This document shows positions 6,619 to 32,413 of a stretch of 33,810 nucleotides of DNA, in pieces. The notes beneath the pieces were generated by a model, which worked only from the letters and a program-made list of their open reading frames with translations, had not been told where the DNA came from and searched no databases. A program made the translations under genes and the position numbers. The stretch's first letter is position 1. The number at the start of each line of letters is the position of its first letter. This DNA is from Saccoglossus kowalevskii (lineage: Eukaryota; Hemichordata; Enteropneusta; Harrimaniidae). Where the stretch lies: contig NW_003156237.1 in the NCBI RefSeq assembly GCF_000003605.2, forward strand, positions 177,705 to 211,514, in the 5' to 3' direction.

Positions 6619-9600
6619 CTGAGTTAGAAAAGTGAAGCAAAGTAATATTATTAAACAATAATGACACCCACAATATTTGTTTAATTCTAATGGTAGTGAT
6701 TTATAACAAATTTAATGAATTCTCTGTAGCAGGTCATCAAATGTGGAGAAGGGTCTAAAGCAAGATATTGTGTGAGACAAAGCCAGCAAACATTCTTGCA
6801 TCTAGACCCTTCTGTGATTCCAATATGACACTGTAGGGAATTCATTATTGATGCAAAACATCACCACCAACAGAAATTTAATTTTTTACTGAAATGAATT
6901 CACTTGTAAATAGACGTTTACATTATTGTATGATATGTTGTCATGAAAAAGGCATGACGTCATGAAAAACCTGTAATTCAGATACATGTCATCTATAACT
7001 GTTTGCTACATTATTGACAAAATTAGTTGCATATATAATGAATAATCTCAAAAGAAATTTTTGAAAATGCTATTTGCTATGTTACCTGCATGGGCTTCAA
7101 CTCTAGAATATAATTTCTGTCCATCTTCTAAGCTCCAAACCATAAAATAATGCCCACTCTTTTGAATATTGTTGTCCAATTGATCAGTGTACATTGCACT
7201 CACTGCATACTTCGAATCTGATGTGAATGTCATGTCACATTTACTGTTTCCCGTGTGACCTTCAAGTGTAAGGAAATGTTCGCCAGACTCAATATTCCAG
7301 ACGTTAATCTCATCACTAGTATCACTGTTTTTTTCTGAAATTATTTTATAAGAATACATAGTTAGCCATGTGAAGTGCCAGGAGGTATATACATTCACAT
7401 CATACACATACCAAATTTGGCGTATAAGCTTATTGATCATATCTTTTACATGTAATGAATTCGTTAGTAAATACATACTTAAAGTGAATATGAAAATGGT
7501 ACAATGAATTGCTAAATACAATTATGTACACAACCATTTTAAGTATATTATCCACCTGATCAAGATAACACAAATGGTAAATGTTAATGATAGTTTTTTT
7601 ATCATGATAACCCCTAAAAAACTTACTTGATGTGTAGCAATACGTTACTGTCATCAGGTTATTAGGAGCTATCCCAACATTGGCGATTGGTGATTCATGA
7701 TGGCCTTCTAGTCGATGTAGCAAACTGCTACCTTCTATTTCCCATACAATTGCTGTCTTGTCCTTTGAACCACTGACAATGTACATGTTGTCTGATGTAA
7801 CTGCCAAAGATGTAACTTCGTCTGTGTGTCCCAGCAGCTGGGTGCGAAGTGGGCCACCAGGTGGTGGGTAACACTGATTGTATGGGATGAGTGGGAGTTC
7901 CACAGACTCTGCTTGTTCCGCATCAGAAACCAATTGATGTAGAAACGTTTCCTTAGAATCTTTCAATCTACCAATAAGTTCAACTTTGAGATTATCAGGA
8001 TGTTCACGTATATTAGAAGCACCTAATCTCAGAGTATCACTGGTCAATGCGATTTCATCATCATCTTCGTACTTTGCAAGCGCCATAGTAAAATCTTGTA
8101 ACACTTCACCAAGAGACATGCCTCTCAATTTTGCCGATATAAACTGAAAGTTACATAGAGTATATTCCTTGAGAAGATCTGGATTTCTTGCATGAATAAG
8201 GTGGTAAGGGAGTTGTTCCAATTTACGAATGTTGAATTTTCCAGTTTCAAACTCGAGGGGCTGTGTAGAGACCATTCTGTCAGCTTCATCTTGTTTTTCA
8301 GTTTTGTTGAACTTCTTCATTTGTTCATCTGTGTATTCAAACGTTTTTTTCTTCCCACCACTCCATTTACCAATAAAGTACTCTGCGCAGAGCATATGCA
8401 ACTGTGTCACAAATTCAGAGTCGTGTAGATACCTTTCAGCTGCTACTTCAATAAACTGTCGATGATACCAGTATATAACGCGAGACCCTTCTGATTCTCT
8501 TTCTACCAGATAATCATTAATTTCAGCTCGAATACGTGTCCACAGCAGTTGTGGTATTCTCCGTGTTGGTGGTAACCAGTAAGCATACACATCTTGTAAG
8601 ACTTCATCATCCAGTGACAGTAAGTCTTCCAATTCAGCTTCTCCGATACCATTCTGTGAAATGGTCATGTAACTCAATGCATGGGAAACCAATACTTTGC
8701 CGTGATATTCTTCAAGGCGATCAAATATAATTGAAATCATGTCCTTAACTGATGGTTGTACATTGATGTTATCAGTTGATAAATACGATTGCCAGCTAGA
8801 TGCTTGGTTGAATAGCAACTTTAAGAAAAGTGGTAAACTACATTGTTGAATGGCATTAGATACTATCTGCTGCTGACCATCTGTATTTACTCTGTTAATT
8901 GACTTTAGCCATGACTGCATTATAAAAGTACTGTCATCAATAGAAAGTTTATTGACTTCTTGGTATCTTGTTTCTTCTGGTAGAATGGTCTTCAAAGTTT
9001 TAAGTATGCTGTGTTCCTCTGGTAGGGTTGATACGACCATAGCAACATGAGCTGGTAAGCGTCGTGGTAACCAAGCCATCCTATGTGCTCCTTCAACTGA
9101 TGAAAGCTGATCCAGAGAATCCAGAAAGATTACCAATGGCTTACTTTGTGTTGCGTATTGTAGGAGCTTTGGAAACAACTGAACCAGCTGAAAATATCCA
9201 TCTGGAATTTCTTGGGTTGTGTCGCCATATATACAAAGTATATGCTTGCATAAAGACTTCAATAATTGCCGTATACCAGTACTGGCCGGTGTTGTGCCCA
9301 GGAATCTTACTATTGATGCTGTATTATTGGTAACACACCACTCCGAGCCCGCTAGATAGGCTGCTTTAGCAATCACTGAAGTTTTACCACTACCAGACTC
9401 ACCATGTACAATTAAAGGAAATCCTTTCATAGAATTCTCGACGCATTCCCCTAAATAATCTTTGATGCAAGATAACAAATCTTCCCTCCCGTGAAAAGAT
9501 TGACATTTCGAGTCACAAAAAGTTAGATGCTGCAAAATCTCTTCATACACGGGGTGGTTACTGAGGTTGTTTTTGTCATCTTCCACGGCACGATCAATCA

Positions 9601-12600
9601 ATTCAACAATGACATCATTGAATCTCTCAAGAAATTGATTTAAGTATTGTTTATGTTCGGGTATATCGACATCTATGCCTTTGGCTGACCAACTATTTAA
9701 ATTTGAAACTATTATGTTTGCTTTATCTAAACATCCGGGAACCTTCGTATCTCTCAAGTCATTCAAAATCTCTTGCGCTGCTTCATCTACAGTATTATTC
9801 TCCCAATTGATGTCGATGTAATTCTGAGCTTCTTTCTCCTCTATGCGTTGTGGCAGGTCTTCGAATTTCCGAACAAAGCACAGACAATGGTTTTCTCGTT
9901 TGGTATCATAGTCAAGTATGCCATGTAAAACCTCGTCGTGTGTGACTAGGGAATTAAACATAATTACAAAAATCATTACAACACTTATTTTATTTATTTA
10001 AACATGCGTTACGGGTGGAAATATTGTAGTTAAAAACACATTTTAGCAATCAGAGGAAACAGTTATTCTTATATAACTTTAGTCAGATCCCGGTCCATAA
10101 ACTTATTCCAGTCAATAAACTGTGGACGTATTACATTTTTTTTGACGGACGGACGGATACACATATTTCACATATTGCTACTTCATGTTGTTGACCAAAT
10201 TTCTTTATGATATGAACTGAAATGCTCGCAGCATACCGTGTAATATTCGTACAATGAAAAACATCAACGCATGCGCAGTGATAGTTATTGTACGTACCAA
10301 AACATTCAGCACACATATTTATTATAGAATGAGATTGTTTGAATAACAATATTGATTTAGTTCAAAATAAATCACAATCCAATGCATTCATATACATATA
10401 TAATCAAATAAAAATATTGAAAATTACATGTTCTCAATCCCAGTGTAACGAAAAACATCAACGCATGCGCAGTAATAGTTATTGTACGTACCAAAACATT
10501 CAGCACACATAATTATTATAGAATAAGATTGTTTGAATAACAATATTTTTTAGTTCATAATAAATCACAATCCAATGCATTCATATACATGTATAATCAA
10601 ATAAAAATATTGAAAATTACTTGTTCGCAATCCCAGTGTAATGAATCAAAAAGAAAATCAGTTTCACCTGATATGGTATACTTGGCTCTTTGCTGTTCTG
10701 TAATCATCCCATTTTTCTGAGATATATCCGATACATATCTCAGTTGTTTTTGCAAATGTTCCAATACATTCCACCATTTCTGTCTATCCTCTGCCATTTC
10801 ATCTTCATGTTCATTATCATTGTAATGTTTCAATATAGAGCTAATGGGTTGTAGGATCCAGATTGCTGGGTCGGCGTTTTCATCTTTCTTGAACCACTCT
10901 TGTAATAGTTCAACGGATTGATTTTCTTCAGTTAATATGCTGATAAATGACTTGAACTCGTCATCGGGGATCTTTGGTGGAAACGGGCGGTAACCGTATT
11001 TCTGACACAGGAATGTCTGCGAAAATGTTGCAGAATCAAATTGGAAAATGACATTTTTATTAAAATAGTGTTTATTTATTATGTTCTATCGGACATATAT
11101 TTAGAAGACTTATGAGAAACAAAAAGAAAAAAAATGCATAAATATGCACATAACATGTACTAATTTGATACAGAATTCAAAGATATTTTCATAGTGTTAT
11201 TAAAATCTGACATCAATCTCAACATTGGACAGTTCACATGTCTATCCGACTACTATCTACATGTATATTGAAAAGGTCAGTGGTTCATAGCGAATCATAG
11301 CACCTGATAATTAGTGTATGTATACAATTAATGTCTAAAATCTGCCGTCTATTTACCAGTGATGTTAATCTAAAACGTTGCGCATCGCAAGTCATAACAC
11401 ACAACGCCATACTATGAATGGCACACAAATCATTTTCGATGAATACACTCAATGCTATCAATGTAGAACGATTGCCACGGACACCGGGCTACATTTAAAG
11501 TAAATTGGTTAGAAGTAATAAAGCAAAATTAAACATATTCCAGATGCACATACGTACATACACAATAAGCTTACCACGAAATTCGGTCCAATTGATAATC
11601 TCTGACACGCTGCGATTTCATTCATACATAACTGTGACGTCATGTGATCATCTGTAGCTTCGTCTCGTACTCCCCATCTCATATCCACGACTTGAAATTC
11701 TAATCCATATTTAGATTTACAGTAATCCCTGAGTTTGGGATAAACATCTTGCATCAATGCATTTCTTTCTACTGATGTATCTGAAACGGATTATAATAAG
11801 ATTTAAAAACGATTATTTACTATGAATGAGTTCATATGTATATTACACATCACAGTAGTCATCGGATATAGCTTGCCTGGTTACGAACGACTATGATACG
11901 TTCACATTACGGGATCTCGGCACGTGCCGAAATTTGTAATCATTCATGTTTGGAGAGGGGTTACAGTCTTATCAGTTCACAGTTCTTACCTAAGAGACAT
12001 GACGTAAATACAGTTGCTATGTTTTCAAACGTGTGACAGTGGTGGCAGTATTTTACAGGTGTGTTTCTTTAGTTTAGTATAGTGAAAATGGAAAAACAAA
12101 TTGATAGAATGAATTGATAAGTAAGATTTTAAGCCCTCAAGTAAAATGTCTGCCCAATATCTGGATGGGGAACTTCTAATTTACACTTGTGTCCGTGATG
12201 CAACCATAACAATTAATTTGTCTGGACAATGCATTGAAGAAAATACCTCAAGTATTACCAGAGAGGGCGCACTTAAATATACGTTGGCTACATAGCCAAG
12301 GTGTTAGTAGTGGTGAGGCGATGACCGAATTAACTAACCATGGCTGGCGAAGATGAACGCCCTGTAGTACCTGCTTAAACATAGAGACATGCAACTTCGT
12401 ATACACATCTGTATTACTGTCAATACATTTATACCGATATTGTCGTAAACTGCAGATCTTACTGAACAAATAGACGAATTCGGCGAGTTAGAGTTAAATT
12501 ATAATACGTTCTAATAATTGTAAATAAACATATTTAGTTTTTGCCTGTAATTTTTACAGAAAGAGATAAACGGTAAAGCAAATATCCGAACCGGAATAAT

Positions 12601-13170
12601 CAACAAGATTGTTGATGTAGCTATTAATTAATATACTATTACATGTACTACTGATTTAAAATAAAGTCCAAGACATGTGTGCATCGTTTTGTAAGTTTCC
12701 ACAGTGTGTTTCAAAATTGATATTGACTGGATTAAAAGGCGACAATCTCCCATCCGATCTGCAGACGAAAAAAGCTGCTTTATTTAAATCTATAAATAGT
12801 CCAGTACGTCTTGCAATTCCTTGGAACCCACTATGATTATAACGATGGCGAATGCACGTGCACTTTCAAATCAGTTTACAACAATTGAACCGAAAGGTTT
12901 GGGTGTTATAAACAACTTGAAAACGATAATGTTATCCTTGTAAACGTTATACGTGAAAATGGCAAAATAAGCCTATGTTCATGTTGCTAAAGGTGTCGGA
13001 CATAACCTACAAGGAAATTTCCGATGTGTGGATACGTGGTAATCTCAAGGTTACAACTGATTCCCACCTGTGAACGTTGAACTTGTGAATATCCTCACTA
13101 TTCTAGATCGGACTGCAGGCAATGGCTTTCCGAGTCTACCCAGCAACAATTGCTCCGTTTGCTCCGACAT
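4268..13170 (-). CDS. NWD1-like: Gene A: NWD1/TEP1-like NACHT-WD40 protein, 1,858 aa, six coding exons
   Basis: Join (in - strand order): 13170-13068, 11780-11575, 11016-10668, 9945-7627, 7334-7086, 6618-4268. The sum is 5,577 bp, 1,858 codons plus TGA. Domain order: a DUF4062-like N-terminus with FTSSTFTD (about 28-35) and MRWGVRDE; NACHT ATPase with Walker A GESGSGKTS (401-409) and Walker B LVIFLDSLDQ (490-499); a winged-helix-like segment; one WD40 array from about 917 to 1,675; then an unstructured tail to 1,858. This is the domain order of the NACHT-WD proteins NWD1 and TEP1, cytosolic STAND-family ATPases in which the WD array is thought to sense and NACHT to oligomerise. It is a head-to-tail paralogue of gene B and shares its first intron positions and phases. 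The ligand and output are unknown. Confidence 0.9.
7086..7334 (-). CDS. NWD1-like: Gene A exon 5: WD40 blade exon
   Basis: The 249-bp exon is phase 1 on both sides. Acceptor ttatttcag, donor gtaaca. It encodes residues 994-1,075, including EINVWNIESGEHFLTLEGHT and HYFMVWSLEDGQKLYSRVEA, one full WD repeat and part of the next. Homologous exons in gene B are 26515-26754, 22587-22832 and 19438-19686. Confidence 0.88.
7627..9945 (-). CDS. NWD1-like: Gene A exon 4: NACHT ATPase and start of the WD40 array
   Basis: Acceptor ttccctag, donor gtaagt, 2,319 bp, residues 221-992. The Walker A Lys is residue 407; Walker B has LVIFLDSLDQ. RFLGTTPASTGIRQL between them is typical of the NWD1/TEP1 NACHT group. 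A helical, winged-helix-like region (ISQNGIGEAELEDLLSLDDE, AYWLPPTRRIPQLLWTRIRA) is almost identical in gene B at protein level. The last 76 residues (LGHTDEVTSLAVTSD, AIVWEIEG) begin the WD40 array. The open frame continues past the donor to 7430, but that part shows no homology and is intron. Confidence 0.92.
10253..10641. repeat. 194-bp direct tandem duplication in gene A intron 3
   Basis: 10253-10446 and 10447-10641 align almost base for base (shared landmarks: aaaaacatcaacgcatgcgc, ccaaaacattcagcacacat, aatccaatgcattcatatac, cccagtgtaa), with about 193-194 bp between matching positions and few differences. The second copy ends 27 bp from the exon 3 donor at 10667. Each copy carries acgcatgcgcagt, which resembles an NRF1 half-palindrome. 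Confidence 0.9.
10668..11016 (-). CDS. NWD1-like: Gene A exon 3: linker after the DUF4062-like domain
   Basis: Acceptor attttcgcag, donor gtgaaa; 349 bp, residues 104-219 plus one base. It encodes TFLCQKYGYRPFPPKIPDDE, an acidic helical region (EWFKKDENADP) and ends KYTIS. The donor is fixed by the paralogue: gene B exon 3 (30071-30419) is also 349 bp and stops at the same Ser codon in phase 1. The open frame runs on to 10597, past this donor, but using it would break phase with exon 4. Confidence 0.88.
11575..11780 (-). CDS. NWD1-like: Gene A exon 2: DUF4062-like core
   Basis: Acceptor atccgtttcag, donor gtaagc, 206 bp, residues 35-103. It encodes TSVERNALMQDVYPKLRDYC, then GLEFQVVDMRWGVRDEATDD and MNEIAACQRLSIGPNFV. 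The ERNAL...YPKLR...VDMRWGVRDE pattern is the hallmark N-terminal module of NWD1/TEP1/NPHP3-type proteins (DUF4062), with a TIR-like flavour. The nucleotide sequence is nearly identical to gene B exon 2 over about 100 bp. Confidence 0.9.
11781..13067 (-). other. Gene A intron 1, with a possible decayed coding remnant on the opposite strand
   Basis: This 1,287-bp intron separates the start exon from exon 2. On the + strand, 12673-12834 is open from an ATG (55 codons, including LPSDLQTKKAALFKSINSPV). A second frame from about 12838 then reads ANARALSNQFTTIEPKGLGV, and a third reads NVIRENGKI. Three protein-like stretches in successive frames suggest a frameshifted remnant of some inserted gene or transposon. 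I do not recognise the family, and chance is possible. Confidence 0.25.
13068..13170 (-). CDS. NWD1-like: Gene A exon 1: start codon and FTSSTFTD motif
   Basis: This 103-bp exon encodes MSEQTEQLLLGRLGKPLPAV then RSRIVRIFTSSTFT, and leaves a G that makes Asp with exon 2. The donor is GTGGGA, weaker than most here but placed identically to the gene B exon 1 donor (32305). The FTSSTF.D motif is exactly what should precede the ERNAL motif in DUF4062 proteins. The ATG (13168-13170) is the only in-frame Met nearby and has a purine at -3. The upstream promoter and any untranslated exon were not identified. Confidence 0.85.
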
Positions 13171-14382: not shown

Positions 14383-14520
14383 TGTAGTGCTTTTATTATT
14401 TGACAAGCAAGTTTTATGCTCTGTTCTGTAAACGTATGCATACGCCACAGCACAGTCTAGTGAGTTGAATTTATATGTTATTGTTTGTGTATGTTTTTTT
14501 AATATGAAATGTACGAGTTT
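14383..14520. repeat. Dispersed repeat, copy 1 (partner at 26240-26378)
   Basis: Shared landmarks in the same order and spacing: gtag..cttttattat.tgac, tgttctgtaaacgt, tacgccacag, gaatttatat, ttttttaatatgaratgta. Copy 2 sits inside gene B intron 5, in the same orientation. The copies are diverged. No terminal repeats or coding sequence were visible, so the class is unknown. Confidence 0.6.
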
Positions 14521-14758
14521 TTGATTAGACTAAGTTATACTGTGCCAATATTCACATTTATCATAGTATTTTGGTTTCATATTAGAACTGAAGAAAATGT
14601 TTCCATCGCAATTTTTAGATTCACTCGTATCAATTATCTTCTAACTAGGAATTTGGCTTATTTCATGTGGATACACCCTAGACGCCGTACTAGAAACGTA
14701 CAATTTAAAATTAAATAATAAGAATTACACTATGTTTTTAACGCACGATTGACCGCGA

Positions 14759-17123: not shown

Positions 17124-19204
17124 TCAATGCTCATCTTTTTTCTGATTTTTAGGATCTTCGTGTCTGGAAGCGGACTCATGTTCTTTCGCACTATTCTTGA
17201 CACTATATTCAAAGATATTAGACAGAGCATTTTTCTCCAACGTGGATCTTCTTTTTATAGAAGTTGGGAAACTAGGAAGTCTTGAAGCATACTGATTTAC
17301 TGCAAGCATGCGTTGTTCTTGCCGTGCCTGTTTGTCAATGAGAAGCTGGTCACTTGTAACTCCACTTTCTTCTTTCTCTGAACTTTGAAATTGTGCACTT
17401 CCAGTTTCAATTTCTTGTTCCATCTGTTTGTCAATATTGAAAAACAACACTTTATCATCGGCTGTGGTTATAACTACTTTGTTCGTGAAAGGAAGGATGT
17501 ACAGGCAATCTACGGGCGGATAGTGTAGTATATTGATAAGCTGTTGACCTGATGATACACTCCAAATCTTCAAATCCACGTCAGCAACAGTCAACACATA
17601 CCGATCATCACCCGTAATGCAAGCTTGTACAACAGTTCCTGTATGTCCAACAAAAGTGTATTTCTCCTGATAAGATTTCATATCCCAAAGTTTGGCCGTT
17701 TTGTCACTTGAAGCAGTCATGAAGAATTTCCCATTTGTGGAGATTGTGATAACCGTGAAGATGTTGAAAGTATGTCTGTATCTGGTGTCACTTGGGAGGT
17801 TATGCGCACTGAACTCATGGATGGGTTTCCCGCTTTCAATTTCAAATATCTTCACGTACCCATTATCCCACCCTGTCACCAGTGTGTGTTCCTCTTTCGT
17901 AATGGCACCGCAGAGCATCTGTCCTGCTTTGTAATTAGATGGAAAGGAAATATTATAGATTTCGTTTCCTGAATTGACATCTAGCATAACAAGGTTCCTT
18001 AGACAAACCATCAATATTCTTTGACCACTCAGAAGAATGATGTTTCCTGGTCTGGACTGTGTTTTGTATTCTTTAATATACCACCCCTTGTTGATATCAA
18101 ATATTTGTATTTTCTCAACATAAGTACTTCCAACCAGTAAAGCAGCTCGAGAACAATCATTGGGAATCATCATACCAATGCAAGGTATATCCAACTTCTT
18201 TGGCTTATGCGCACACTGTTCAAGATTATTTGGATTATATTCTCTTAAGGCAAATCCACCAATTCCAAACAACCTCGTACTATCCGAAGTCATGGTCAAG
18301 CTGTCAAGTTCGCGTTTGTTCAAACCATCCCACTCTTGTGTGACTATTTTCGTTCCATGCTCGATGTCGAACAATGTAATGTTTGTTCCCCAGTTTCCTA
18401 TTACGGCCATGTGACTTTCGTCATCTAAGATCTCAACACGGTGTGTCATGCGCTGTATATGGGGTTTCCTGTCTCGGAATAGTTCGCCAGATATTCTGTG
18501 ATACTCAGGTTTTATTTTGTCTGTTAGTTCTGTCTCGGATACTGTTAAATCTTCAATGTTCCAAATCCTTATGCTTCTGTCTGATGATGCTGTTACTGCA
18601 TAAGAAAATAATCCTGTTGTGATATATCTAATATCATTGACAATTTGTTGATGTCGAAGATTTGCCAGAAACTTCAGTTCACATTTTGTTGAATGGGGTT
18701 TCTTTTGAGCCATCCATACAACTCCACACTCAGATCTGTGGTGTTGTGTTACGATGGTTTTAAAGTCATCTGAGAAGAATATTTGGCTTATCATCCCACC
18801 ATGGCCACCACCAAATACCATGTTCAGCACAACCCTTGCTTCTTTAATATTATAAACAGTGAGGTAGTTATGTGTACTAAAGAACATAACTTCACTGTCG
18901 TCATTAATGAATTTTATCATCTGTGCATCACCATAGTTCTCTTCAGATAAATATGAAAACACACCAGTATTGACATTCAGAATTCCGGGACGATAAAAGT
19001 GGAATGCTACACATTGACCATCAGATGACACTGACATCTTTCGACATGGGCGTCGTTGTAGTTTGGTGCGATCAAGAATAACTTTCAGTAATTGACCTGT
19101 CAATAAATCCCAAAGTTTAATACCAGGATCTTGTTCTGCTCCACATGTTACTACAATTTGATGCCCCTCAGCGAATTGTGCAAGTACAATGTCATTTATG
19201 CGCC
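17124..19204 (-). CDS. NWD1-like: Gene B exon 10: WD40 array 3 and C-terminal tail
   Basis: Acceptor tctatatttgcag; residues 2,831-3,522, TGA at 17124-17126. It begins GRINDIVLAQ, parallel to the starts of the other two arrays, and carries VTCGAEQDPGIKLWDLLTGQ, AFHFYRPGILNVNTGVFSYL, RIWNIEDLTV, AKLWDMKSYQ and LKIWSVSSGQ. The last ~104 residues form a charged, Gln- and Lys-rich tail ending KKDEH; unlike gene A it has no CaaX-like box. The upstream Met used by the long open frame lies in the intron and should not be taken as a start. Confidence 0.85.
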
Positions 19205-22200
19205 CTGCAAATATAGAAAAAAATGTAGCATTAGTTGGGATAATTTTGTACTTAATAGACCTTTTTTCATTGCACCCTCTAATGACGAAGTGCTTTTGTG
19301 AGGGAAATGATGTACTGTGAGTGGTTTTGTAGAAGTACAGCATAGCAAATTTCTTCAAACAGTCAATTTATCAGTTCAACCCTGTATTACTGAGCTAGTG
19401 TTGTTTGAATGAAAACATCTTCCCAATATGCACTTACCTTTGTGTGCCTCAACTTCTTCATATAACTGTTTTCCGTCTTCCAAACTCCAGACTATGAAAC
19501 AGTATTTATATCTATTAGATGATCTCTCCCTGTATTTGTTGTACATTTCACTTATCGCAAAGTTTGAGTCTGCAGTAAACTGCATATCGCAATGTCCTAG
19601 TCCAGTATGCCCTTGAAGATCAAATAAATGCTCACCAGATTCAATGTGCCATACAGTGATGTGTTCAATACTCTCATTAGTACCATCTACAATAAAAGCA
19701 AACAGTTTCACTTTTTTGCTTTTTAATGTAAACAAAAAATCAATAGTCATATAGGAATTTCAACAATGAATATATAACAATAACAAGTAATGTTATAACA
19801 ATAACAATATAAATTATGTTTTGATCAAAATTATAATCAACTATATTAAACTAAAAATATGATAAACATGTTAATTTTCATGAACAATACTTACTGTAAC
19901 CATATGTAATCACTTTCAAATCATCTGGAGTGATACCAATTCTGGCAACGGGATAGGTGCACACAAATGTATGAATCTTAGAACATGTTTCTATATTCCA
20001 TAATATAGCTGTTTTATCTTTACTTCCACTGATAAATAATTGTCCATCTGAAGTAGCTGCCAAAGATATTACTTCATCAGTATGCACCAGTAATTGTCTA
20101 CCCAGCAAACTATTCGATTGATTTGTTTCTTCCCCGTACATCACAAGGGGATTGCCCAGACTCTGATAATCAGTGTGAAGTCTTAGTGATCTTGGTGACC
20201 GGGTCTTTCTAATTTGCCGAGTTTGTTGGCGATGTTTTTGTGTGATAGTACATTTCGAATGGGATGGTTTTAGCTCTGACACAATTTGACAATTGTTCTT
20301 GTCAACTGCAGTTACCCGATGATAAGGCAAATCTTTTGTAGATAATTTGGATGCAGTTTGAATTGCTGGAAGTGGTGGTAAACCTTTATTTGCTGTATAT
20401 TTCTTCAGGACTGATTCTCCTATCAATGTTTGTTGCGAGCGGAGTTGCAACTGGTCTAGAGTTTGTGTATCATGTGCCTGCAAAGCCCCGGCATGTTGGT
20501 TGTTCACATTGTAGAACATTACTCTTCCATCCACTGTAGTAACAATCACCCTGTTAGATTTTGGTAAAATGTGTAAAACATCGATTGGCCAATATTCTGT
20601 AACTGTCATTAATCGACCTCCTGACACAGAGCTCCAAACTATTACATTCATGCCAGCAGAAGTTAATACATACTGATCATCTCCAGTAATCTTTACATTG
20701 CTCACAGGTGCATTATGACCTGTTAGAAAATGACATTGTTCAAGTGCCATCACGCTTCGCACTTGCACTTCATCACTCAATGCTGCTACAATAAACTTAT
20801 TGTTATTAGAAAGTAAGATGTCTCTGAATATATCACCACCATCGCTGTATCTTGCCTTCTTTACCTTATGATGAGCTTCAAAATTATGGACTATTTCCCC
20901 AGAATCAACTCTAATCAGCTTTATGAAGCCATCATTCCATCCTGTCACTAGCAGTGCTTCATCCTTTGACAATTCTCCACAAATCAAGCTTGAATCACCA
21001 AAGCGTTGTCTGTAATGATGACTGTAGATACTGTCTCCTGTTGTCAAATCGACCATAGCTAAATCGTTTGTGCATGGTAGCAGCATCCGATGTCCACTTA
21101 AAATAAATATGTGCTGGGGTCTACTAGGAGGTCTGTATGTTTCCATATACCATTCCTTGTTGATGTCATATATATAGATTGTGTCCACATAATTACTTCC
21201 ACCAAGTAATAAAGACATATTGCCATTTTCAGCAATGAGGCCTATGCAATTGGGGTCCAATTTCTTTGGTGTCTTTGTTAGGGGTTGTAAATTATCTGAA
21301 TTGTATTCCTGTAAAAACAATCCACCAATTCCAAATAGCCTCTTTCCACTTACTGTTGATGCCATGCCATCCAACCTATGTTTATTTGGGCAATTCCATT
21401 CTTGGGTGCTAATTTCCTTTCCACTGGACATATCATACAGTGTTATATGTTTGCCCATGTTGTCGACCAATGCTACTTTTTTTTCATCATTTAATGCTTC
21501 AATTCTGTGCACAATGCGTCTCAAATATGGTTTTCGATCTGAAAAAGTTTCAAGTAATTCCCTGTTGTATTCAAAAGTCATTTCATTTGTGAACTCTTCC
21601 CTTGACCCAGCATAACTCGTGATATTCCATATTCTGATATTCTTATCAGCTGAACCAGTAATGGCAAGTAAACATGATGTGTTGTCCACCAAAACCATAG
21701 CATTAACACACTCAGGGTGCGCAAGGTGGGTTGTGAAGATGCATGATTCTTTCATGACATCATGTCCACTTTTCTTTGTTTTCCAAAGTGAACCACATTC
21801 ATATCTGTCACAACGAGTGAGAAGTGCATCCATGTCACCCACAACAAACAACTCTTCAACTAGCTTACCACCACTAAATGATGACAACCTTCTCACTAAA
21901 CGTCTTTCCATAGTGTCATAAACATATACATGGGACATACTGTTATCAGTAAACATTACTTTCTTGTCACCATCAATGAATTGGACCATCTTTGCATCGC
22001 CACTTTCCTCTTCAGACAGATAAAAGAACTCACCAGTATCAATATCGAGAATCCCGGGTCTATAGAAATGAAATGCCACTTGTTTCCTATTTACTGATGC
22101 AGCCATTTTTCTACAAGGGCGATGATGGAGCTTAGTGCGATCAAGAATTACATTAAGCAGATGACCAGTCAACAAATCCCACATTTTGATACCTGGATCT

Positions 22201-25200
22201 TTATCACCTCCACATGTGACGACAATGTGGTGTCCTGTAGACGACTGCGCAATTACAATATCATTGATGGGACCTTCAATAAAAATAAAATAAACACAAA
22301 TATTACGATATGGATATGGTAATGTTTCACATGTTCAGTTTTCACATTTGACAACAGACAATACAAATGTGAAGGGTTATTATTTTTTAGCTGTGCTCAA
22401 AGTAAAATAGAATCTGCCAAAAATTTCAAACAATGGAAAGAATGTAAACGCATTTAACAAACATGCCATTCATTCATGGTGCTACTGTTGAGTTATTTTG
22501 TATGTATATATAGCAGAATAGAAATTGATTGGCTTTAAAACAAGATGAAACAAGACACAATTTCTATAAATAATACTATGTCGTACCTGTATGTGCATTT
22601 ATTGCATCATATATTTGTTTCCCATCTTTCAAACTCCATACTATGAAGTAGTATTTATATTTAGTTGTTCTACCTTCTTTTATTTTAGTGATAAGGTCAC
22701 TCACAGCATACTTTGAATCATTCGTAAACTGTATTTCACACTTTCTGACACCATAATGCCCTTTGAGGTCAAATGCATGTTCACCATCTTTGATGTTGAA
22801 CACCATAATTTCATCATTTACAATGTTCTGCCCTGTAAATAAATAAATAAATAAATGAATATGTATACAGATACGCTATAAAATATAATATCAACTACCA
22901 TTTCACATCATGAACACATGAGTTGGGTTAGTTGATTAGATTGTTGAATTATGGTAATGAGACACAAAGGAGACACATGAATTTCTTCAAATAATTACAC
23001 ATAATTACACTACATACAGCCTATTTAATCTACTCACCATATCCATATGTGATAGCCAATAAGTCATTAGGTGTTACTGAAATCTTCAATATTGGATATC
23101 GGTGATAACCTTCCAGTGTGTAAAGAGGTGAATTATTTTCCAAATCCCATATCATTACCATCATATCCTTGGAGCTACTAACAAGATACTTGCCATCAGA
23201 AGTAACTGCTAGTGATAAAACCTCATCATAATGACCTACAAGTTGGGTACAAGGTGGTCCACCAATTGTTTGTTTCGATTTGCTGTATAACACTAACGGG
23301 TCCCTGACAGTATCTTCTTGTTGTTGATTTTGTAGTGTCCTTGGTTTTAGTCCAATGTGCTTTTTACTAAATGTTTTAGTAGGTGATTGTTGATACGGAC
23401 TTGTTGCATAGTAATTACGCGGTGTTGCCAATGTTACTGGTAGTGGCTGATTAATTTTAACTTTGAGAGCTTGGTTTGGTAGTTTCAGTTCATTTGATTG
23501 TGGTTCAGATATTATAGGAGGTAGTGGAACACGATTCTGTATTCGCTGATGATTCAAATCACCCTTCTGTGTGCCCGGGGCTGTATTGCGGATTACTGGA
23601 ACTCTATTTTCAGATGGCACTACAGGAACTGAAATCGCTGGCTGATCATTAACATTGCGAGACTTGGCATGGTTGGATATCTTGCACACATTGAAAAACA
23701 TAACTCTCTCATCTGATGTTGTTATGATAACCTTGTTTGTTTGGGGCAAAATATATAACCCATCAATGGGGGAATATCCTAATATAGCAGTCAATTGGTG
23801 ACCTGATGCAACACTCCAGACTTTGACATTCATCTCGGCACTTGCTGATGTCAATACATAAAGGTTGTCTGCAGTAATACGCGTAGTATTGACAGGAGAG
23901 GTGTGACCATGAAACACGTGACGGAGCTCCAATGATTTTATATTCCACCACAGCTTAGACGTATTGTCGCTGGATGAACTCACAAAAAAGAAATCATCAG
24001 AGGACAGGGCTATTTCTGAAATTATATCAGCTTGACGTTTTTTCTTAGTTATTTCATGTGCCTGGAATTCGTATACAATTTCTCCAGATTCAATTTTGAT
24101 TACCTTTATATGACCATTGTCCCATCCTGTTATCAGCATTGACTCATCACTTGCAATAGCCCCACAAATCAAGCTTGAATCACCAGAGCGTTGTCTGTAA
24201 TGATGACTGTAGATACTGTCTCCTGTTGTCAAATCAACCATAGCTAAATCGTTTGTGCATGGTAGAAGCATCCGATGTCCACTTAAAATAAATATGTGCT
24301 GGGGTCTACTAGGAGGTCTGTATGTTTCCATATACCATTCCTTGTTGATGTCATATATATAGATTGTGTCCACATAATTACTTCCACCAAGTAATAAAGA
24401 CATACTGCCATCACCCGGAATCAATATACTGTTACAGTTTGGATCCAATCGTTTTGGTTTCTCTGAAAGAGGTTTTAGATTCACTGTGTTGTATTCTCTC
24501 AGTGCAAAAAATCCAATTGCAAACAACCTCTTGCCATCAGACATTGAAGCTAAACCATCTAGTTCATGCTTGTGTGTGCCTTCCCACTTTTGAGTTGCAA
24601 TTTCTTTTCCGTTTGATATATCATATAATGATATATTTTGTCCATGGTTATCTATGACTGCAACACGTTGTTCATTATCAAGTACTTCAAGCCTGTGGGT
24701 AATGTGCTTCAATAGCGGTTTTCTTTCGGAGTATGTTTTAGTGTCCTTGCTATAGTCAAGCTTTGATCCCTGGTTGGCTGACTTCAAGAGACTAGCAATA
24801 TTCCACACATTTATGTTTTTATCTGCTGATCCAGTGACGGCAAATGTTGAATGTTTATTTTCAATAAGGCGTATAGAATTGATTTGTTTATTGTGTGGAA
24901 GGAAAGATAACAGTTCACAATCAGAACTCTTCATACGTTGCTCATTCATATGTGAATTCCACACAGTAGCACACTCAAAACCATCATGTACTGATACAAT
25001 AGTTACCAAATCTTTGGTAAAGCATATTTCTTTAATTTCTTTACTGCTTCCACCATACATCTTTAGAGATCGCACCACTCTCTTTTCAGCTATGCTATAT
25101 AAAGATATGTGATCACGTTGGAATATTACTTCTTTGTCTTCATTGAAGAAACACACCATCTTTGGATCACCCGTATCATCACATATATATATGAATTCCC

Positions 25201-28200
25201 CAGTGTTGACATCTAGGATACCTGGATGATGAAAGTGGAATGCAATCAACTGACCATTGGATGATACTGCCATTTTCTTGCAGGGGCGATGGTCAATCCG
25301 TCTTCTGTCCATAACTGCTTTTATTAGTTCTCCTGTTAGTAGATTCCAAATCTCAATGGCACATTCCTTGCGCTCACCACATGTCACTATTACTTGGCGC
25401 CCGTCAGACATTGTTGCTAAGACAATTTCATTGATCTTACCTGCATAAAATATAAAACATTATATTAACTACATTTCAATCTCAAAATATATTCGCTTGG
25501 AGACAAACGTCGTGTTACAATAGTTTTTCCCAAATAGCACCCTAAGATAAATTGTCTGATATAAACCATCCATTCTGAACTACTACTTGATTTTCCATGA
25601 TATATCGGTGGAATGAAATCACAAGGAGCAGGATGTGTGGACTATTTTGATGAACACATGACTTCACTTTCTTGAAATCTATTGGGGAACTTTATAATTT
25701 CTGTTGGAACGGCATTCAGGTAGCATTGAGTCTGTACTTGTCAATGTATATTGTGTTTTTTTAAAGTCATCTAAAGTGGGATGTTTCATGGGTGGGGTTG
25801 TTATCAAAAATATGATGTGTGCTGATGACTTGGTTATATTGAGCCCGTTCTTCCGGGGTTTGCTAATATAATATAATGTTTCCAATTTCTCACTTGCATC
25901 AGTAGTGATGTTAAAATTACATTATTCCGAACATGTATTGATCACAACTGTTTTTTCACAAAACACTCGACTTTTTCAAACGGGTTTGGCATGCCAGCAG
26001 CAGATGCTTACCCTTCACGTGCACCTGGTCTGACTGCCTTGTTTGTGATGTTGCGGTTCCATCGATTTTGTCAGTATATTTTTTTCTAGACTACTGATAT
26101 TTGGAGAATGGCTTATTGGTACTACTATAATTATTCAATATAATTGCAAAAGTATTTCATTTATTCCTGGGTTGGCCGACAACATTCTTACATTTGACAC
26201 TCTCAGACGAAATATGTTTTTTTTTCACTCTATACTCATTGTAGTTTTTTTATTATCTGACACACGTGTCTTGCCTTGTTCTGTAAACGTGCGTATACGC
26301 CACAGCTACTCTGGTGTATTGAATTTATATTTCATTTCTTTTTGTGTGTTTTTTTAATATGAGATGTATGGGCTTTTTCACTTTATATTCTGCAAAAAAT
26401 ATTTAATGATAACATTGTATTTTTAGACTTTCGCTAGCAAACTATGATTAAGGATTTTATTAAAAAGCATTGTGTAAGATGTTATGCTATTTGATTCTGA
26501 GTTACTGTACCTACCTTTTAATTCTACTTTCTCGTATAACTGCTTGCCATTCTCTAAACTCCAAACTATAAAGTAGTGTGAATACGTAATTCGCTTTTCT
26601 TTTATTCTGGCAAACATATCACTCACAGCAAATTTGGAGTCCTGTGTGAATCGCACATCACAACGTCCCATTCCAGTATGACCATTTAATTCCAAGAAAT
26701 GTTCTCCGGTCTCTATATTCCATACATGTATTTCATCATTTGTGTATTCTTGACCTGTGGGTAGAAATAATACATCCATTGTTGTATTACGACTAATATT
26801 ATTACATATGATAATTGTTTTTTATTGATCGCCCCATCAAAGCATAGAGAATCACTTCACATAAATAAATCTGGAAATATCAGCGATTCACGTTACATGC
26901 ATGCCTTCAGTGGTGTAGCATTTCATTTGTTTTGCGTGTTTATATGTTCACATCATTTACAGTACAAAACAAGACAAATAGTAATAATAACAATAATGAA
27001 CACCCAACAGTGTTATATTCAATGCAGAGATGATTCTGCTCTTATTAGTCTCGTGTAGAATCAACTAAACAACTGATGCTTTGGGTCGTCAGTTGAATCA
27101 TGGTATGTTAATATTGGGGATATAATATTTGCGAGTATCATTGGTTACTTTATTAAAACAATGTCTATCCCTACTTACCATATCCATATGTAACTGTTAA
27201 TAAGTTATCGGCTGTAATGCCTATCTTTGTTATAGGATGTTGGTGATGACCTTTCAATGTGTGAAGTGGAGTGCTATTTTCCAAATCCCATACAATAGCA
27301 GTCATGTCCTTGGATCCACTAACTAAAAAACGGCCATCCGATGTATGTGCCAGTGATAACACCTCATCTGAATGACAAGAGAGCTGAGTCCGCAATAATC
27401 CACCTGGTTCAGGGTAGCACTGGTTGTATGGTATTAGAGGGACATTCCCAAGAGAAGACTTCTCTGCATCAGAGATCAGCTTTGCAATGTGGATATTCTG
27501 AGAACTTTTAAGTCTTCCAATCAGTTCAATGGCAAGATAATCAGGATCTTCCCTTAAGGTTGATGCTCCAACTCTCAGCAGGTCGTCAACTGATCTTATT
27601 GCATCATCGTCATATTCTTCAAGAGCCATAGTAAAATCTTGTAAAATATCTGCCAAAGACATGCCTTTCAGTTTAGTTATTATAAAATCAAAGTTGCATA
27701 ACACATGCTCCTTCAACTTGTCTACATCTCTAGCATGAATAAGGTGGTATGGCAGCTGCTGTAATTTTCTTATATTATACATATCATCACTGAATTTCAA
27801 GGGCTGTGCTTCAACTTTCCTATCTGCCTCAGCTTGTTTTGGTCTCATGAACTTCTTCACTTGTTCTTCTGTATATTCAAATGGTTTCGCCCTCCCCCCA
27901 CTCCACGTTCCTAAATAGTATTCTGTACAAAGTTGATGAAATTTAGAAAGCATGTTGATATCTTGTAGATATCGCTCTCTGACAGTTTCAATAAACTGAC
28001 GGTGGTACCAGTAGATAGTTCTTAGACCATCTGCTTCTCGTTCTACTAGATAATCATTGATGTCAGCTCGAATACGTGTCCACAGTAATGGAGGTATCCT
28101 CCTTGTTGGTGGGAGCCAGTAAGCATAGACTTCTTGTAATACTTCATCGTCCAATGACAGTAAGTCTTCTAACTCAGCCTCTCCAATACCATTCTGTGAA

Positions 28201-31200
28201 ATGGTCATGTAACTCAAGGCATGGGACACTAATGCCTTACCATGATATTCTTCAAGACGGTCAAAAATTACTGCAATCATTCCTTTTACTGATGTCTGCA
28301 GATTTATCTTTGAGTCTGGTATGTATGACTGCCAACTTGAAGCTTGATCAAACAACAGTTTGAGGTAAAGTGGTAGGCTACATTTCTGAATTGCATGGCA
28401 TATTGTACGTTGTTGTTCACTGGTGATTACTCGTTCCTTGGATTGTAGCCAGGACGTCATGGTATTCAAACTCTCATTAGTGGACAGTTCTTTAACCTCA
28501 GCATATCTAGTCATAGTTGATGATAAAATAGACCTCAGTGTAGTCAATATGTTGTTTTCATTCGGCAATGTTGATACTATCATCGCAACGTATGGTGGCA
28601 GGTATCGTGGGAGCCAGGCCATTCTATAAGCACCATCTGCAGGTGAAAGCTGATCTAACGAATCAAGGAATATTACTATTGGTTTTTCCTTTGTAGCATA
28701 TTGCAGTAGCTGTGAAAATAATCGCACTAGTTGAAAGTAGTCAGATGGAACATGTTGAGTGTCATCATATATGGTTAATATCTGCAAGCACACAGACTTT
28801 ATCAATTGCCTGATACTTGTACTAGCTGGAGTTGTACCAATGAATCTCAATATTATTGCTGCCTGTGTTAATCCATACCACTCAGACCCTGCGCACAAAG
28901 CTGCTTTTGCCATAACTGATGTTTTACCACTACCAGATTGACCATAGATGACCATTGGAGATGATTTTGTTGTGTTGTCTTCTAATCTCCCATTGATGTA
29001 ATCTTCTATTCCTGACAACAAATCATTGCGTCCATAAAATAATTTACACTTCAACTTACAAAAGATGAGATGCTGCATTATTTCTTCGAACATCGGATCT
29101 TTGCTGATGTTATTCTTGTCCCTTTCTACACCTTTGGCAATCAAACTTATAAGCTTCTCATAAAACGTATGTAAGAATGTGTCCAAGTACTCTTTATGCT
29201 CTAGTATGTCCACATTGACTCCACCACTTGACCAATTTGATAATACGGATTCAAATACATTGGATTTTGGCAAAACCTTGGGTACTAATTTGTCTCTCAA
29301 ATCTGATAGCAGCAGTTGTGCTTCCTCGTCAATTTCGTCAGTAGAGGTGATGTCCAGGAATTGTCTAACTTCTTCCGTAACTGTTTTATTCTCCAAATCT
29401 TTGAACTTTCTTATGAAACAAAGACAATGGTCTTCTCTTGGTAAACTGGCATCGAATAGACCACGCATAACCTCGTCGTGAGTGACTGAAATAAAACAAT
29501 TCCACTATAATCGTTTTTCCAAGTCACTAATAATATTACAGTTTCTAATGTTTTTTTTCTTTGACAAATGATCAACAGTAATAATATGATAATACAAAAT
29601 GCATCAAATATATTTTAGAGTTTGATAACAATTTGTGTAGCAAATAATGTAAGTTTCATTATGTATCAATTAATCCCGTAAAGCCGAGGTAGATCGGCAA
29701 GTGTCTTAGCGTGGATGTAAATTATGCAAACTTAGGAAGAATCGCACGTGACTAATTTGGATGTTTGTTGTATCCTATTAATATACGACCAATTTTCCCG
29801 TGCAATATTTTTCTAAATATACGTTTGATTATTAATAAACAAACGTCTATATGGTACGAATTCTGAAAAGTTAATTATTTACATAATTACTTGAATACAT
29901 CTTTATTAAATAGTTATTTAGTTAAATAATATTAACGAATTTATTTTTTTACGATCTTAGTATTTACTTTTCATAGTGAAATATACCATACATATGAGCG
30001 TGGTCAACCAGGAATCATCCAATTTCCCATACTTTACATATATATCAATTAAGCATTGTAATGTTATTACCCGAAATCTTGTATTTGTCAGCTACTTTTA
30101 CACTCATAGCACCAGTACTACTGCATATGGTCGAGGCATGTCTGAGTTTCTCTTGTAGCGTTATACGCACGTCTTCCCATTTCGCTCTGTCCTTTGCCAT
30201 TTTATCTGGATCGCCATTGTCATTAAAATGACACAATTTTGAGCTGATTTTTTGGAGTACGTAAACTGGTGGAACAGCATTGTTGTCTTTTTGAAACCAT
30301 TCGTCCATTACATCAACTGACTTTCCTTCTCTGGTTAAAACATTTCTCATTGATTCGAATTCTTCAGCTGGTATTTTGGCCGGGAATGGTCGGTAGCCAT
30401 ATTTCTGACACAAAAACACCTGAAAACATAATAAAAACGCTCAACTTAAAAAAACCATTATGAAATATAATATTACGTGTATTGCATATCAAACTACATA
30501 ATGATACAGTTTAATTACAGCAATTCCAGGCACTGATTTGACGCTGAAGTAGTGCTAGATGTTGATAACTTACTACAATAGGTTACACACTTTATTTTTA
30601 ACATTTACATAAGTTGTTACAAATAATGCAGACAGCATGTCTGCAATTTGAAGCGCACCGGGAAAAAAGCTCCGCCCATAAAAGTGGCAGTACATTAGTT
30701 TTGAATTTCTCCTCCAATAAACGATCGAGGCCCTCAACTTAGTTTAGTACTACTTGTTTTGCGTCACATGTTATTTCAGTGAGAGGGCGCATACAGTGGT
30801 GACACTGTAAAGAACGTTATTTTACAGAACCAGCTGGCCGACTGATCATGACAGAATTATTGATCAAAGTGCATTCATTATTCCTACTATGGAAATATCC
30901 GTATCACGTCGATGTATATAACTGAAAACTGCCTGCAACCAATGTCTTATAAAGACTTCATCCAGTATATCAATAATGAAATTGAATACATAAGTAGTTC
31001 TCGACGATGAGAACCAAAAGGTTGATGTGCCACCAAATAATCGCTTTAAAAAGCTTATCACTGGCAACACACGATCACACGTCGGGGGAGGGTTGCCGCT
31101 GTACACAAGTAGTTTGCGCGGTCGCAATGTTTTATAATATTCGACAGGATACTCTCGGTGGTAACAAACCGTTTGACGATATTATAAGCTGTCTGCTTTG

Positions 31201-32413
31201 AAACAGCATTCCGATCTCTAATCTCAGCAAATGACAGTCCACGAAAATACAAATCGACAACTCTTGTTCTCACTTCAACTGTTTTTTTGACTCCTTGCTT
31301 CTCCATCATGGAGCGTTAAACAACTTGGACAAATGCCGATTTGTAGACGCAAACTACACGATGACCGACCAAAAGTGAATGAAAGACAGGCGCGCCTCAA
31401 AGTCTAGGTGTACCTGGCTTTGTAGCAAAAATAGAAAACATTGTAGGCAATATCTGTCAATCATTCCTCTGATTTGCAGTCGATGTGTATATTTCTAGTT
31501 ACAACTTCTGTCAATTTGAAAACAAAGTGTGTAACCTACTGTAGTAAGTTATCAACATCTAGCACTACTTCAGCGTCAAATCAGTGCCTGGAATTGCTGT
31601 AAGACTTCACATCCTATATCATGTGAATTCTTACCACAAACGTTGGACCATCAGATATTCTCTTGCATTCCTCAATTTCATTCATACATAACTGTGACGT
31701 CATGTGATCATCTGTGGCTTCGTCTCGTACTCCCCATCTCATATCCACGACTTGAAACTCTAATCCATATTTTGATTTACAGTAATCTCTTAGTTTTGGA
31801 TAAACATCTTGCATCAAAGCATTTCGTTCAACATAAGTATCTAAAAGAGAAGTACAATGTAAATATGAGAATGTAAGTTAATAAAGCGCGGTAGACATCG
31901 TGCCGCGCATGCATTGGATTATGGGAAAATCAATGTTTATCAAAACAAATATCGCACATGCGAGCCCTTTAATATCTGAGCTTGAGACTCCAATCATCTG
32001 AATGATAAATTCTACAATGTTCCGTATCCACCATGTGCTTTATCACTCCAGTGATCTGATTTGTATGTTCTGCAGGTTTCGTACCACAGTCCCTCTGTGT
32101 TTGTACTCTTGTTCGTACTATTATAGGTGATACTTCGTTCACTGCGAGATCTTGCCCGCCATATTTTGACATGATAGATTTTCACTGAGAGTGAGGGAGT
32201 CATGTTTTGCTCCTCAAATAATATTCCAAATTATTCTCTCCCCTCATTGGGTCCATATTTCCCAATACCGTGGTTACCTTAGAAGGTGAAAATGTTTAAC
32301 CTACCTGTGAACGTTGAGCTTGTAAATATACGCACTACTCGCGATCTGATTGGCGGAAGGTCACAATTTGTTCTACCCAACGATAACGCACGTTTCAAAT
32401 CACTGTCATCCAT
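17124..32413 (-). CDS. NWD1-like: Gene B: giant NACHT protein with three tandem WD40 arrays, 3,522 aa, ten coding exons
   Basis: Join (- strand order): 32413-32305, 31840-31635, 30419-30071, 29485-27179, 26754-26515, 25440-23038, 22832-22587, 22273-19895, 19686-19438, 19204-17124; 10,569 bp in all. Domain order: DUF4062-like N-terminus (FTSSTFTD, ERNAL, MRWGVRDE); NACHT with Walker A GQSGSGKTS (393-401) and Walker B IVIFLDSLDQ (481-490); WD array 1 (about 916-1,655), basic linker 1 (about 1,656-1,796), WD array 2 (about 1,797-2,543), basic linker 2 (about 2,544-2,675), WD array 3 (about 2,676-3,418), charged tail. Every junction has consensus GT/AG, and frame is kept throughout. NWD1-type proteins normally carry one array. 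The arrays could be separate genes, but none has its own start region or NACHT, and all fit as phase-1 internal exons. Confidence 0.8.
19438..19686 (-). CDS. NWD1-like: Gene B exon 9: short WD40 blade exon of array 3
   Basis: The 249-bp exon is phase 1 on both sides. Acceptor ttttattgtag, donor gtaagt. It encodes HITVWHIESGEHLFDLQGHT and YCFIVWSLEDGKQLYEEVEA, residues 2,748-2,829. It is equivalent to gene A exon 5 and gene B exons 5 and 7. Confidence 0.85.
19895..22273 (-). CDS. NWD1-like: Gene B exon 8: hybrid exon, WD40 array 2, linker 2 and start of array 3
   Basis: 2,379 bp, residues 1,955-2,746. The acceptor (ttttattgaag) is weak but positioned exactly as in the other units; the donor is gtaagt. 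It begins GPINDIVIAQ, carries VTCGGDKDPGIKMWDLLTGH and AFHFYRPGILDIDTGEFFYL, then a linker very rich in Lys, Arg and His (KHRQQTRQIRK). From about 20153 it switches to sequence that matches the end of exon 4: NPLVMYGEE, LLVHTDEVISLAATSDGQLF, AILWNIETC. The linker may contain a nuclear localisation signal (inference). Bases 20977-21225 are nearly identical to part of exon 6. Confidence 0.85.
22587..22832 (-). CDS. NWD1-like: Gene B exon 7: short WD40 blade exon of array 2
   Basis: 246 bp, phase 1 on both sides. Acceptor tttatttacag, donor gtacga. It encodes NDEIMVFNIKDGEHAFDLKG and YYFIVWSLKDGKQIYDAINA, residues 1,873-1,953. Confidence 0.85.
23038..25440 (-). CDS. NWD1-like: Gene B exon 6: hybrid exon, WD40 array 1, linker 1 and start of array 2
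   Basis: 2,403 bp, residues 1,072-1,871. Acceptor attttatgcag, donor gtgagt. It begins GKINEIVLAT and carries VTCGERKECAIEIWNLLTGE, AFHFHHPGILDVNTGEFIYI, VKVWSVASGH, and then a Pro-, Gln- and Lys-rich linker of about 140 residues. From about 23302 the sequence turns into an exon 4-type WD start: DPLVLYSKSK, LVGHYDEVLSLAVTSDGKYL, VMIWDLENNS, ITYGYG. This repeats the organisation at the end of exon 4, so the array 1 end and array 2 start are fused in one exon. Confidence 0.85.
25441..26514 (-). other. Gene B intron 5, 1,074 bp
   Basis: The longest non-transposon intron of gene B. Apart from the dispersed repeat copy at 26240-26378 I see no gene or RNA in it. The short open frames at 25679-25885 (-) and 26172-26357 (+) have no domain or splice support. 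Confidence 0.6.
26240..26378. repeat. Dispersed repeat, copy 2 (partner at 14383-14520)
   Basis: It aligns with the intergenic copy over about 138 bp, sharing ttgttctgtaaacgtg, tatacgccacagc, ttgaatttatat and gtttttttaatatga in the same order. It lies in gene B intron 5. Confidence 0.6.
26515..26754 (-). CDS. NWD1-like: Gene B exon 5: short WD40 blade exon of array 1
   Basis: 240 bp, phase 1 on both sides. Acceptor ttctacccacag, donor gtaggt. It encodes NDEIHVWNIETGEHFLELNG and HYFIVWSLENGKQLYEKVEL, residues 992-1,070. It is slightly shorter than the other copies of this exon because of an altered end (VELK instead of EAH). Confidence 0.85.
27179..29485 (-). CDS. NWD1-like: Gene B exon 4: NACHT ATPase and start of WD40 array 1
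   Basis: 2,307 bp, residues 223-990. Acceptor ttttatttcag, donor gtaagt. Walker A GQSGSGKTS (Lys399), Walker B IVIFLDSLDQ and RFIGTTPASTSIRQL identify the NWD1/TEP1-type NACHT. The winged-helix-like segment ISQNGIGEAELEDLLSLDDE is identical to gene A. The last 75 residues (CHSDEVLSLAHTSDGRFLVS, AIVWDLENS) start WD array 1. The donor gives TAT G|GTAAGT, the same codon split as exon 6 (TAT G|GTGAGT). Confidence 0.92.
30071..30419 (-). CDS. NWD1-like: Gene B exon 3: linker after the DUF4062-like domain
   Basis: 349 bp, exactly as in gene A. Acceptor attatgttttcag, donor gtaata. It encodes VFLCQKYGYRPFPAKIPAEE, EWFQKDNNAVP and ends KYKIS. It is clearly more diverged from its gene A counterpart than exon 2 is. 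Residues 106-221. Confidence 0.88.
30516..31601 (-). mobile_element. Tc1/mariner-type DNA transposon with 78-bp terminal inverted repeats, in gene B intron 2
   Basis: 30516-30593 and the inverted complement of 31524-31601 match at 77 of 78 bases. Each end begins TA-CAGCAATTCCAGGC, consistent with a TA target duplication. The unit between the TAs is about 1.08 kb, too short for a full transposase. On the - strand it carries a helix-turn-helix fragment (31058-31309) with degraded sequence after it. It fills most of the 1,215-bp intron, ending 33 bp from the exon 2 donor and 96 bp from the exon 3 acceptor. The near-identical TIRs point to recent mobility, probably with help from another copy. 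Confidence 0.85.
31058..31309 (-). pseudogene. Transposase N-terminal helix-turn-helix fragment
   Basis: An 83-codon open frame with VEVRTRVVDLYFRGLSFAEI and RNAVSKQTAYNIVKRFV, a paired-type helix-turn-helix as found at the N-terminus of Tc1/mariner transposases (an arginine-rich helix, a GLS turn, then a recognition helix). After about residue 60 homology fades. Another frame then reads DRPRKL, which resembles the usual G-R-P-R-K linker, so a frameshift is likely. No DDE/D catalytic triad was found in the remaining 550 bp. Non-functional as seen. Confidence 0.6.
31635..31840 (-). CDS. NWD1-like: Gene B exon 2: DUF4062-like core
   Basis: 206 bp, as in gene A. Acceptor cttctcttttag, donor gtaaga. 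It encodes TYVERNALMQDVYPKLRDYC, GLEFQVVDMRWGVRDEATDD and MNEIEECKRISDGPTFV, residues 37-105. It ends in phase 0, the only such coding junction in the gene. Confidence 0.9.
31841..32304 (-). other. Gene B intron 1, 464 bp
   Basis: Between start exon and exon 2. Two overlapping - strand open frames (31969-32203) look vaguely protein-like, but have no recognisable domain and no splice signals that keep the frame. Nothing else was identified. Confidence 0.5.
32305..32413 (-). CDS. NWD1-like: Gene B exon 1: start codon and FTSSTFTD motif
   Basis: 109 bp of coding sequence: MDDSDLKRALSLGRTNCDLP then PIRSRVVRIFTSSTFT, with a G left to make Asp with exon 2. The donor is GTAGGT. The IRSRVVRIFTSSTFT stretch matches gene A exon 1 almost residue for residue, which confirms both start exons. 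A good acceptor (acaactcttttcag, AG 32434-32435) lies 20 bp upstream of this ATG, so an upstream leader exon is likely, and the real start could be 10 codons earlier (see the leader exon). Confidence 0.85.

Follow-up and report, generated by a model that had tools for sequence, protein, structure and literature searches.

How many genes lie behind the three consecutive WD arrays that follow one NACHT ATPase region in the hemichordate Saccoglossus kowalevskii, and what a protein carrying all of them might do, are the questions raised by the locus described here. The window, the whole stretch of DNA that was analysed, covers 33,810 nucleotides of NW_003156237.1 (contig C4558 of a 572-Mb assembly), and positions are counted from its first letter. 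Gene B occupies the minus strand from 32413 to 17124. Re-derived from the sequence, it consists of ten exons that join in frame, as the initial annotation had proposed: all nine introns are bounded by GT..AG, and the coding sequence of 10,569 nt encodes 3,522 residues and contains a single, terminal stop. Exon 1 (32305..32413) supplies the start codon and the first DUF4062 strand, exon 2 (31635..31840) the DUF4062 core, and exon 3 (30071..30419) the remaining DUF4062 region. Exon 4 (27179..29485) encodes the NACHT ATPase, an NWD1-type winged helix, APAF1_C-like helices and the first WD blades of array 1, which continues in exon 5 (26515..26754). Exon 6 (23038..25440) holds, in one open frame, the remainder of array 1, linker 1 (residues 1656-1784) and the first blades of array 2. 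After exon 7 (22587..22832), which belongs to array 2, the same arrangement recurs in exon 8 (19895..22273), with the remainder of array 2, linker 2 (residues 2544-2661) and the first blades of array 3. Exon 9 (19438..19686) lies within array 3, and exon 10 (17124..19204) encodes its remainder, a C-terminal tail of 102 residues ending in KDEH, and the stop. Exon 5 is homologous to exons 7 and 9.

The Pfam matches bear out the reading of a DUF4062-NACHT protein followed by three WD modules of about 750 residues, which are judged complete by their sequence. DUF4062 (PF13271) matches residues 28-115 of the spliced product with 30.8 bits against a cut-off of 24.7. Within exon 4, NACHT (PF05729) reaches 36.4 bits (cut-off 26.7), HTH_NWD1 (PF25469) 55.5 bits (cut-off 27) and APAF1_C (PF17908) a marginal 25.0 bits (cut-off 22.8), and the gene B translation contains GQSGSGKT, which we take to be a Walker-A-like motif. 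Neither CARD nor NB-ARC is among the matches listed for the exon frames or for residues 1-391. The modules span residues 904-1655 (752 residues), 1785-2543 (759 residues) and 2662-3420 (759 residues). WD40 (PF00400) is matched in each of them, as are related propeller models, including that of the TEP1 C-terminal propeller. For array 3, TEP1_C scores 61.9 bits (cut-off 32) and NWD2_C (PF23586) 51.7 bits (cut-off 33), the latter, among the matches listed, in module 3. Comparison of the array profile with solved structures yielded 343 matched sequences, in which APAF-1 chains were included, below some other WD proteins. Searches of NCBIfam (3 proteins) and PADLOC (2 proteins) returned weak ATPase-type matches only.

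Each module can be cut by eye into 16 WD-like motifs, a number that is not a measured blade count. Structure prediction, which had been put forward for all three arrays, was carried out for exon 6 and goes part of the way: the AlphaFold model, built from four sequences, is weak (mean pLDDT 58.9, pTM 0.42), and it suggests two propellers per WD module. In the numbering of the exon, strands extend up to residue 213 and are followed by a break of low confidence (220-247), by 29 strands between 250 and 583 and by a linker modelled as disordered (588-739). The next array opens with its first blade at 740, and over linker 1 the pLDDT is mostly 21-36.

Independent support for the gene B model comes from its paralogues. 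Gene A (4268..13170, minus strand) has six exons, 1,858 residues and one WD array, and so keeps the single-array form ascribed to it initially. Its intron phases are identical to those of gene B, the lengths of its first five exons are 103, 206, 349, 2319 and 249 nt as compared with 109, 206, 349, 2307 and 240 nt, and the start exons of genes A and E are similar to exon 1 of gene B. As genes A and B differ at 38% of their NACHT-exon residues, the agreement of their intron positions indicates that both gene models are likely right.

The non-coding parts of the window contain several repeats. Intron 2 of gene B contains, at 30515-31602, a pair of 87-nt terminal inverted repeats (97% complementary) that enclose 914 nt with a weak match to a helix-turn-helix model (22.8 bits against a cut-off of 24.6); this element is probably a decayed DNA transposon. 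A dispersed repeat is found both between genes A and B (14408-14522) and in intron 5 of gene B (26263-26377), its two patches being 80-83% alike with the same spacing. In gene A, the intron that follows exon 3 contains a tandem duplication of about 193 bp (10253-10645) with copies that are 95-96% alike, and the window starts with a tandem array (1-315) of 13.6 copies of a 23-bp unit. Rfam models at their gathering scores and a tRNA scan found nothing in the window.

Does the region between 32413 and 17124 nevertheless represent more than one gene? The initial annotation had named, as the outcome that would speak against a single protein, separate genes with promoters before 25440 or 22273. Internal promoters or polyadenylation sites might indeed split the region, into separate genes or into alternative transcripts, and the 3,522-residue protein would then be rare or absent. 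The gene B model was read from DNA only, the long intron 5 (1,074 nt) would leave room for regulatory sequence, and an in-frame Met at residue 2665 lies four residues into the array 3 module. The coding signal of linker 2 is also weak: its in-frame codon score is only 0.08 (0.02 and 0.06 in the other frames), as compared with 0.13 for linker 1 and 0.12-0.14 for the modules, and one of the nine introns, which score between -0.18 and 0.05, comes near it. The junctions themselves, however, argue against a division. Each lies inside one long exon and in one frame, no in-frame Met is present in either linker (129 and 118 residues), and arrays 2 and 3 have neither a NACHT of their own nor a stop ahead of them. 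The linkers are moreover stop-free beyond chance, as first-order Markov simulations of their own composition remained open in 22 of 20,000 runs for linker 1 and in 142 of 20,000 for linker 2. Internal starts before 25440 or 22273 are disfavoured by the undivided junction exons and the Met-free linkers, and we regard separate genes or transcripts as very improbable. One single gene with three WD arrays is predicted from this sequence with high confidence.

An assembly echo was considered as the source of the three modules and was ruled out, the modules differing at about half of their residues (pairwise identity 42-53%). In all six pairs compared, inter-module differences are most frequent at codon position 3 and least frequent at position 2, a pattern as found under selection on the protein. 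This bears on the possibility that arrays 2 and 3 are passive, that is, relaxed duplicates that have no sensing role and are kept by chance or as a scaffold. The arrays diverge most in their sixth to eighth motifs, with mean identities of 0.33, 0.28 and 0.38, and array 2 is without some typical WD residues in the module alignment, both of which would fit relaxation. Yet all three modules have remained open over about 750 codons, with change greatest at third positions, and 133 of 842 columns are invariant in an alignment of the last or long WD exons (gene B's three arrays and gene A). Passive extra arrays are, in our estimation, unlikely, and three putative sensor inputs on one ATPase appear plausible from the sequence.

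The arrays have not evolved entirely separately from one another. Whole-array identity is 63% between arrays 1 and 2 and 53-57% in the other pairs, the former value including a tract of 250 nt, at 24162..24411 in array 1 and 20977..21226 in array 2 (both on the minus strand), in which 246 of 250 nt are shared. This tract scores 233, whereas none of 1,000 codon shuffles exceeds 56, indicating gene conversion; the remaining five pairs score 13-22, within their own shuffles, and it is the only converted tract found between arrays. The output end of the cluster shows a different picture. Exon 2, which encodes the DUF4062 core, is 92-97% identical in DNA among genes A, B, C and E over 113-166 nt (144 of 151 nt are common to genes A and B), and genes A and B agree at 87% of positions over 236 nt of exon 4, whereas residue identity of the arrays across the cluster is 37-53%. 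The near-identity of exon 2 alongside diverged arrays indicates that the output module is homogenised while the sensors diverge.

How the three arrays came to lie on one gene can be approached through the other members of this cluster. Five NACHT-WD genes (A-E) were found, and the search of the genome with the NACHT exon gave at least 32 matches. The close matches among these, namely B, A, C, D and an incomplete E, all lie on the same contig, C4558. At least eight matches were obtained with the array exon: three are the arrays of gene B, genes A, C and D account for a further one apiece, and the other two, both weak, lie on C1276 and C1268; strong array-type matches are thus found at no fewer than six places (three in B and one each in A, C and D), all on one contig. 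Genes A and D end after one array, gene D being a single-array end, located near position 135816 of C4558, with its own stop and with its first exons falling in a stretch of N. The sequence of gene C leads into a run of N, and its WD exon contains a frame shift; gene E is cut by N. The N runs of the contig, be they gaps or withheld sequence, may hide a second multi-array gene. The WD exon of gene C (C4558:116202-117202) switches frame after a very acidic, Asp-rich stretch, which may reflect a pseudogene, an extra intron or a sequencing error. More distant NWD-like NACHT exons lie on C1276, C3179, C2732, C2562 and C4557, some of them with internal stops. Scans with the NACHT alignment of genome contigs and viral contigs outside this genome returned 50 and 56 pattern stretches and no relatives, and a scan of viral contigs with the DUF4062 alignment returned 26 pattern stretches, again without relatives.

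In trees to which genes C and D were added and from which the converted tract was removed, arrays B1, B2 and B3 group apart from A, C and D with an ultrafast bootstrap of 94. Support for this group is lower in subsets of the data: it drops to 88 when the first 430 columns are used, to 73 in a tree of five sequences and to 55 when exon 6 is the only region used, again for five sequences. In these array trees, the aligner scattered about 30 residues at the end of the incomplete gene C module. Six of the eight trees that break up the group are rejected by the AU test (p < 0.05), the other two having p values of 0.059 and 0.090, and four of the eight are not rejected by the SH test. The three trees that keep the B arrays together are indistinguishable, and four-sequence trees leave the order of the array duplications unsettled. 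The introns of the three array units share short patches only and therefore do not date the duplications.

As an alternative to duplication, loss of the NACHT parts in between could have fused three neighbouring NACHT-WD genes, and the arrays would then stem from different genes. The presence of five such genes in the cluster lends itself to this, and so does the make-up of the junctions, which join a tail-like stretch to a homologue of the NACHT exon end, as a deletion between neighbours would: at its start, each downstream module is similar to the NACHT exon end from 'PL..Y' onward. The linkers and the C-terminal tail are similar in composition and lie on the disordered side of the charge-hydropathy rule, which agrees with a putative origin of the linkers from former C-terminal tails, though their sequences align too poorly to establish it. 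Two of the eight mixed trees also survive the AU test. The other six do not, and the separation of the B arrays from those of A, C and D speaks against a fusion of neighbours, which we consider improbable. As the B arrays group together, duplication inside gene B probably gave rise to the three arrays, with moderate support from sequence comparison. The single-array gene D with its stop and the array trees likewise lend moderate support to the proposal that a single array is the ancestral form and that the expanded form lies beside it.

What the DUF4062 domain of gene B might do as an output can be considered in relation to TEP1. PMC13174449 describes DUF4062 as a TIR-like NADase family of which TEP1 is active in vitro, and reports no NADase activity in vitro for human NWD1 and NWD2. 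A phmmer search with residues 1-391 of gene B (E up to 1) found a single solved relative, TEP1 chain 11gz. When its numbering is inferred from the three arginines named in PMC13174449, R908, R954 and R976 align with T36, M83 and K111 of gene B, the arginines being replaced. E1008 aligns, at an ungapped position, with Asp144 in gene B and with Gln in gene A; Glu145, one residue past this position, is conserved in both genes, so that exon 3 of gene B carries D144 and E145 near the position of the TEP1 catalytic Glu. From the replaced arginines, with the catalytic Glu uncertain, the active site is probably degenerate and little or no NADase activity is expected of the gene B domain, and the loss of the active-site arginines makes a scaffold-type output likelier than NAD hydrolysis.

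Several known systems share parts of this architecture. NWD1 and NWD2 have the DUF4062-NACHT-WD40 order, the NWD1-type winged helix, APAF1_C-like helices and C-terminal WD propellers in common with gene B, but a single WD array is usual among them, although not defining. The C-terminal region of human NWD1 is described in PMC4039239 as comprising 12 WD repeats, whereas gene B has a whole module of about 755 residues three times. TEP1 and the DUF4062 TIR-like NADases (Swarozyc) resemble gene B in placing DUF4062 beside NACHT and WD propellers. TEP1 has TROVE and vWA, which were not matched in residues 1-391 of gene B (E up to 1), nor among the best 25 matches per exon frame. APAF-1 is likewise a STAND ATPase with APAF1_C-like helices and WD propellers, of which the weak model of gene B suggests two per array; it differs in having CARD instead of DUF4062, NB-ARC instead of NACHT, and one array instead of three. 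According to PMC13174449, the WD module of APAF-1, whose architecture is CARD, NB-ARC and one array, folds back on the ATPase and releases it when ligand binds. The nearest parallel is the concerted evolution of single WD blades in fungal HET-D and HET-E: these HNWD NLRs combine NACHT with WD repeats and, according to PMC1805685, exchange WD units both inside a gene and from one gene to another. What varies in the fungal genes is the number of single, near-identical blades, whereas in gene B whole diverged modules lie in tandem with one converted tract. A literature search over titles and the openings of abstracts, which included few subscription papers, returned no NACHT protein with several complete WD arrays.

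Taken as an NWD-type STAND ATPase whose WD module was duplicated twice within the gene, gene B might work as follows, an account as a whole to which we give about an even chance. Array 1 lies immediately after the helical domain and, by analogy with APAF-1, would fold back and hold NACHT closed; binding of a ligand to the WD surfaces would release NACHT, which would oligomerise, and the clustered TIR-like DUF4062 domains would provide the output, presumably by scaffold-type signalling. Arrays 2 and 3 would add ligand-binding surfaces, for more inputs or for avidity, and would not act as extra switches. In the part next to the helical domain, array 1 matches gene A at 58 of 87 positions, array 2 at 43 of 87 and array 3 at 41 of 86, as expected if only array 1 keeps this contact in cis; gene conversion, of which exon 4 bears traces in another part, could also account for the likeness of array 1 to gene A next to NACHT. 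With DUF4062 near-identical across the cluster, outputs would be shared while sensors differ.

The C-termini of the cluster differ as well: gene A ends in CSVL and gene D in CIML, both of which resemble prenylation (CaaX) signals, whereas gene B ends in KDEH. Judged by these residues, the two single-array neighbours seem to carry a C-terminal lipid-type anchor that gene B is without. A further reading, which is offered tentatively, is that of a multi-input STAND receptor in which one ATPase and one output domain would serve three independently diverged dual-propeller sensors of intragenic origin, the output being homogenised by conversion, which also copied a sensor piece between arrays, and no C-terminal lipid-type anchor being present.

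The gain of specificity in STAND receptors is usually framed in terms of more genes or of changing repeat numbers. Here, a whole sensor module has been multiplied on one switch, and the adjoining single-array paralogues form a built-in control, so that whether one array suffices to hold and release NACHT is directly testable by array deletions. If the proposed organisation is true, binding of the same ligand by all arrays would mean a gain in avidity, whereas different ligands for each array would point to a route by which multi-input receptors may arise.
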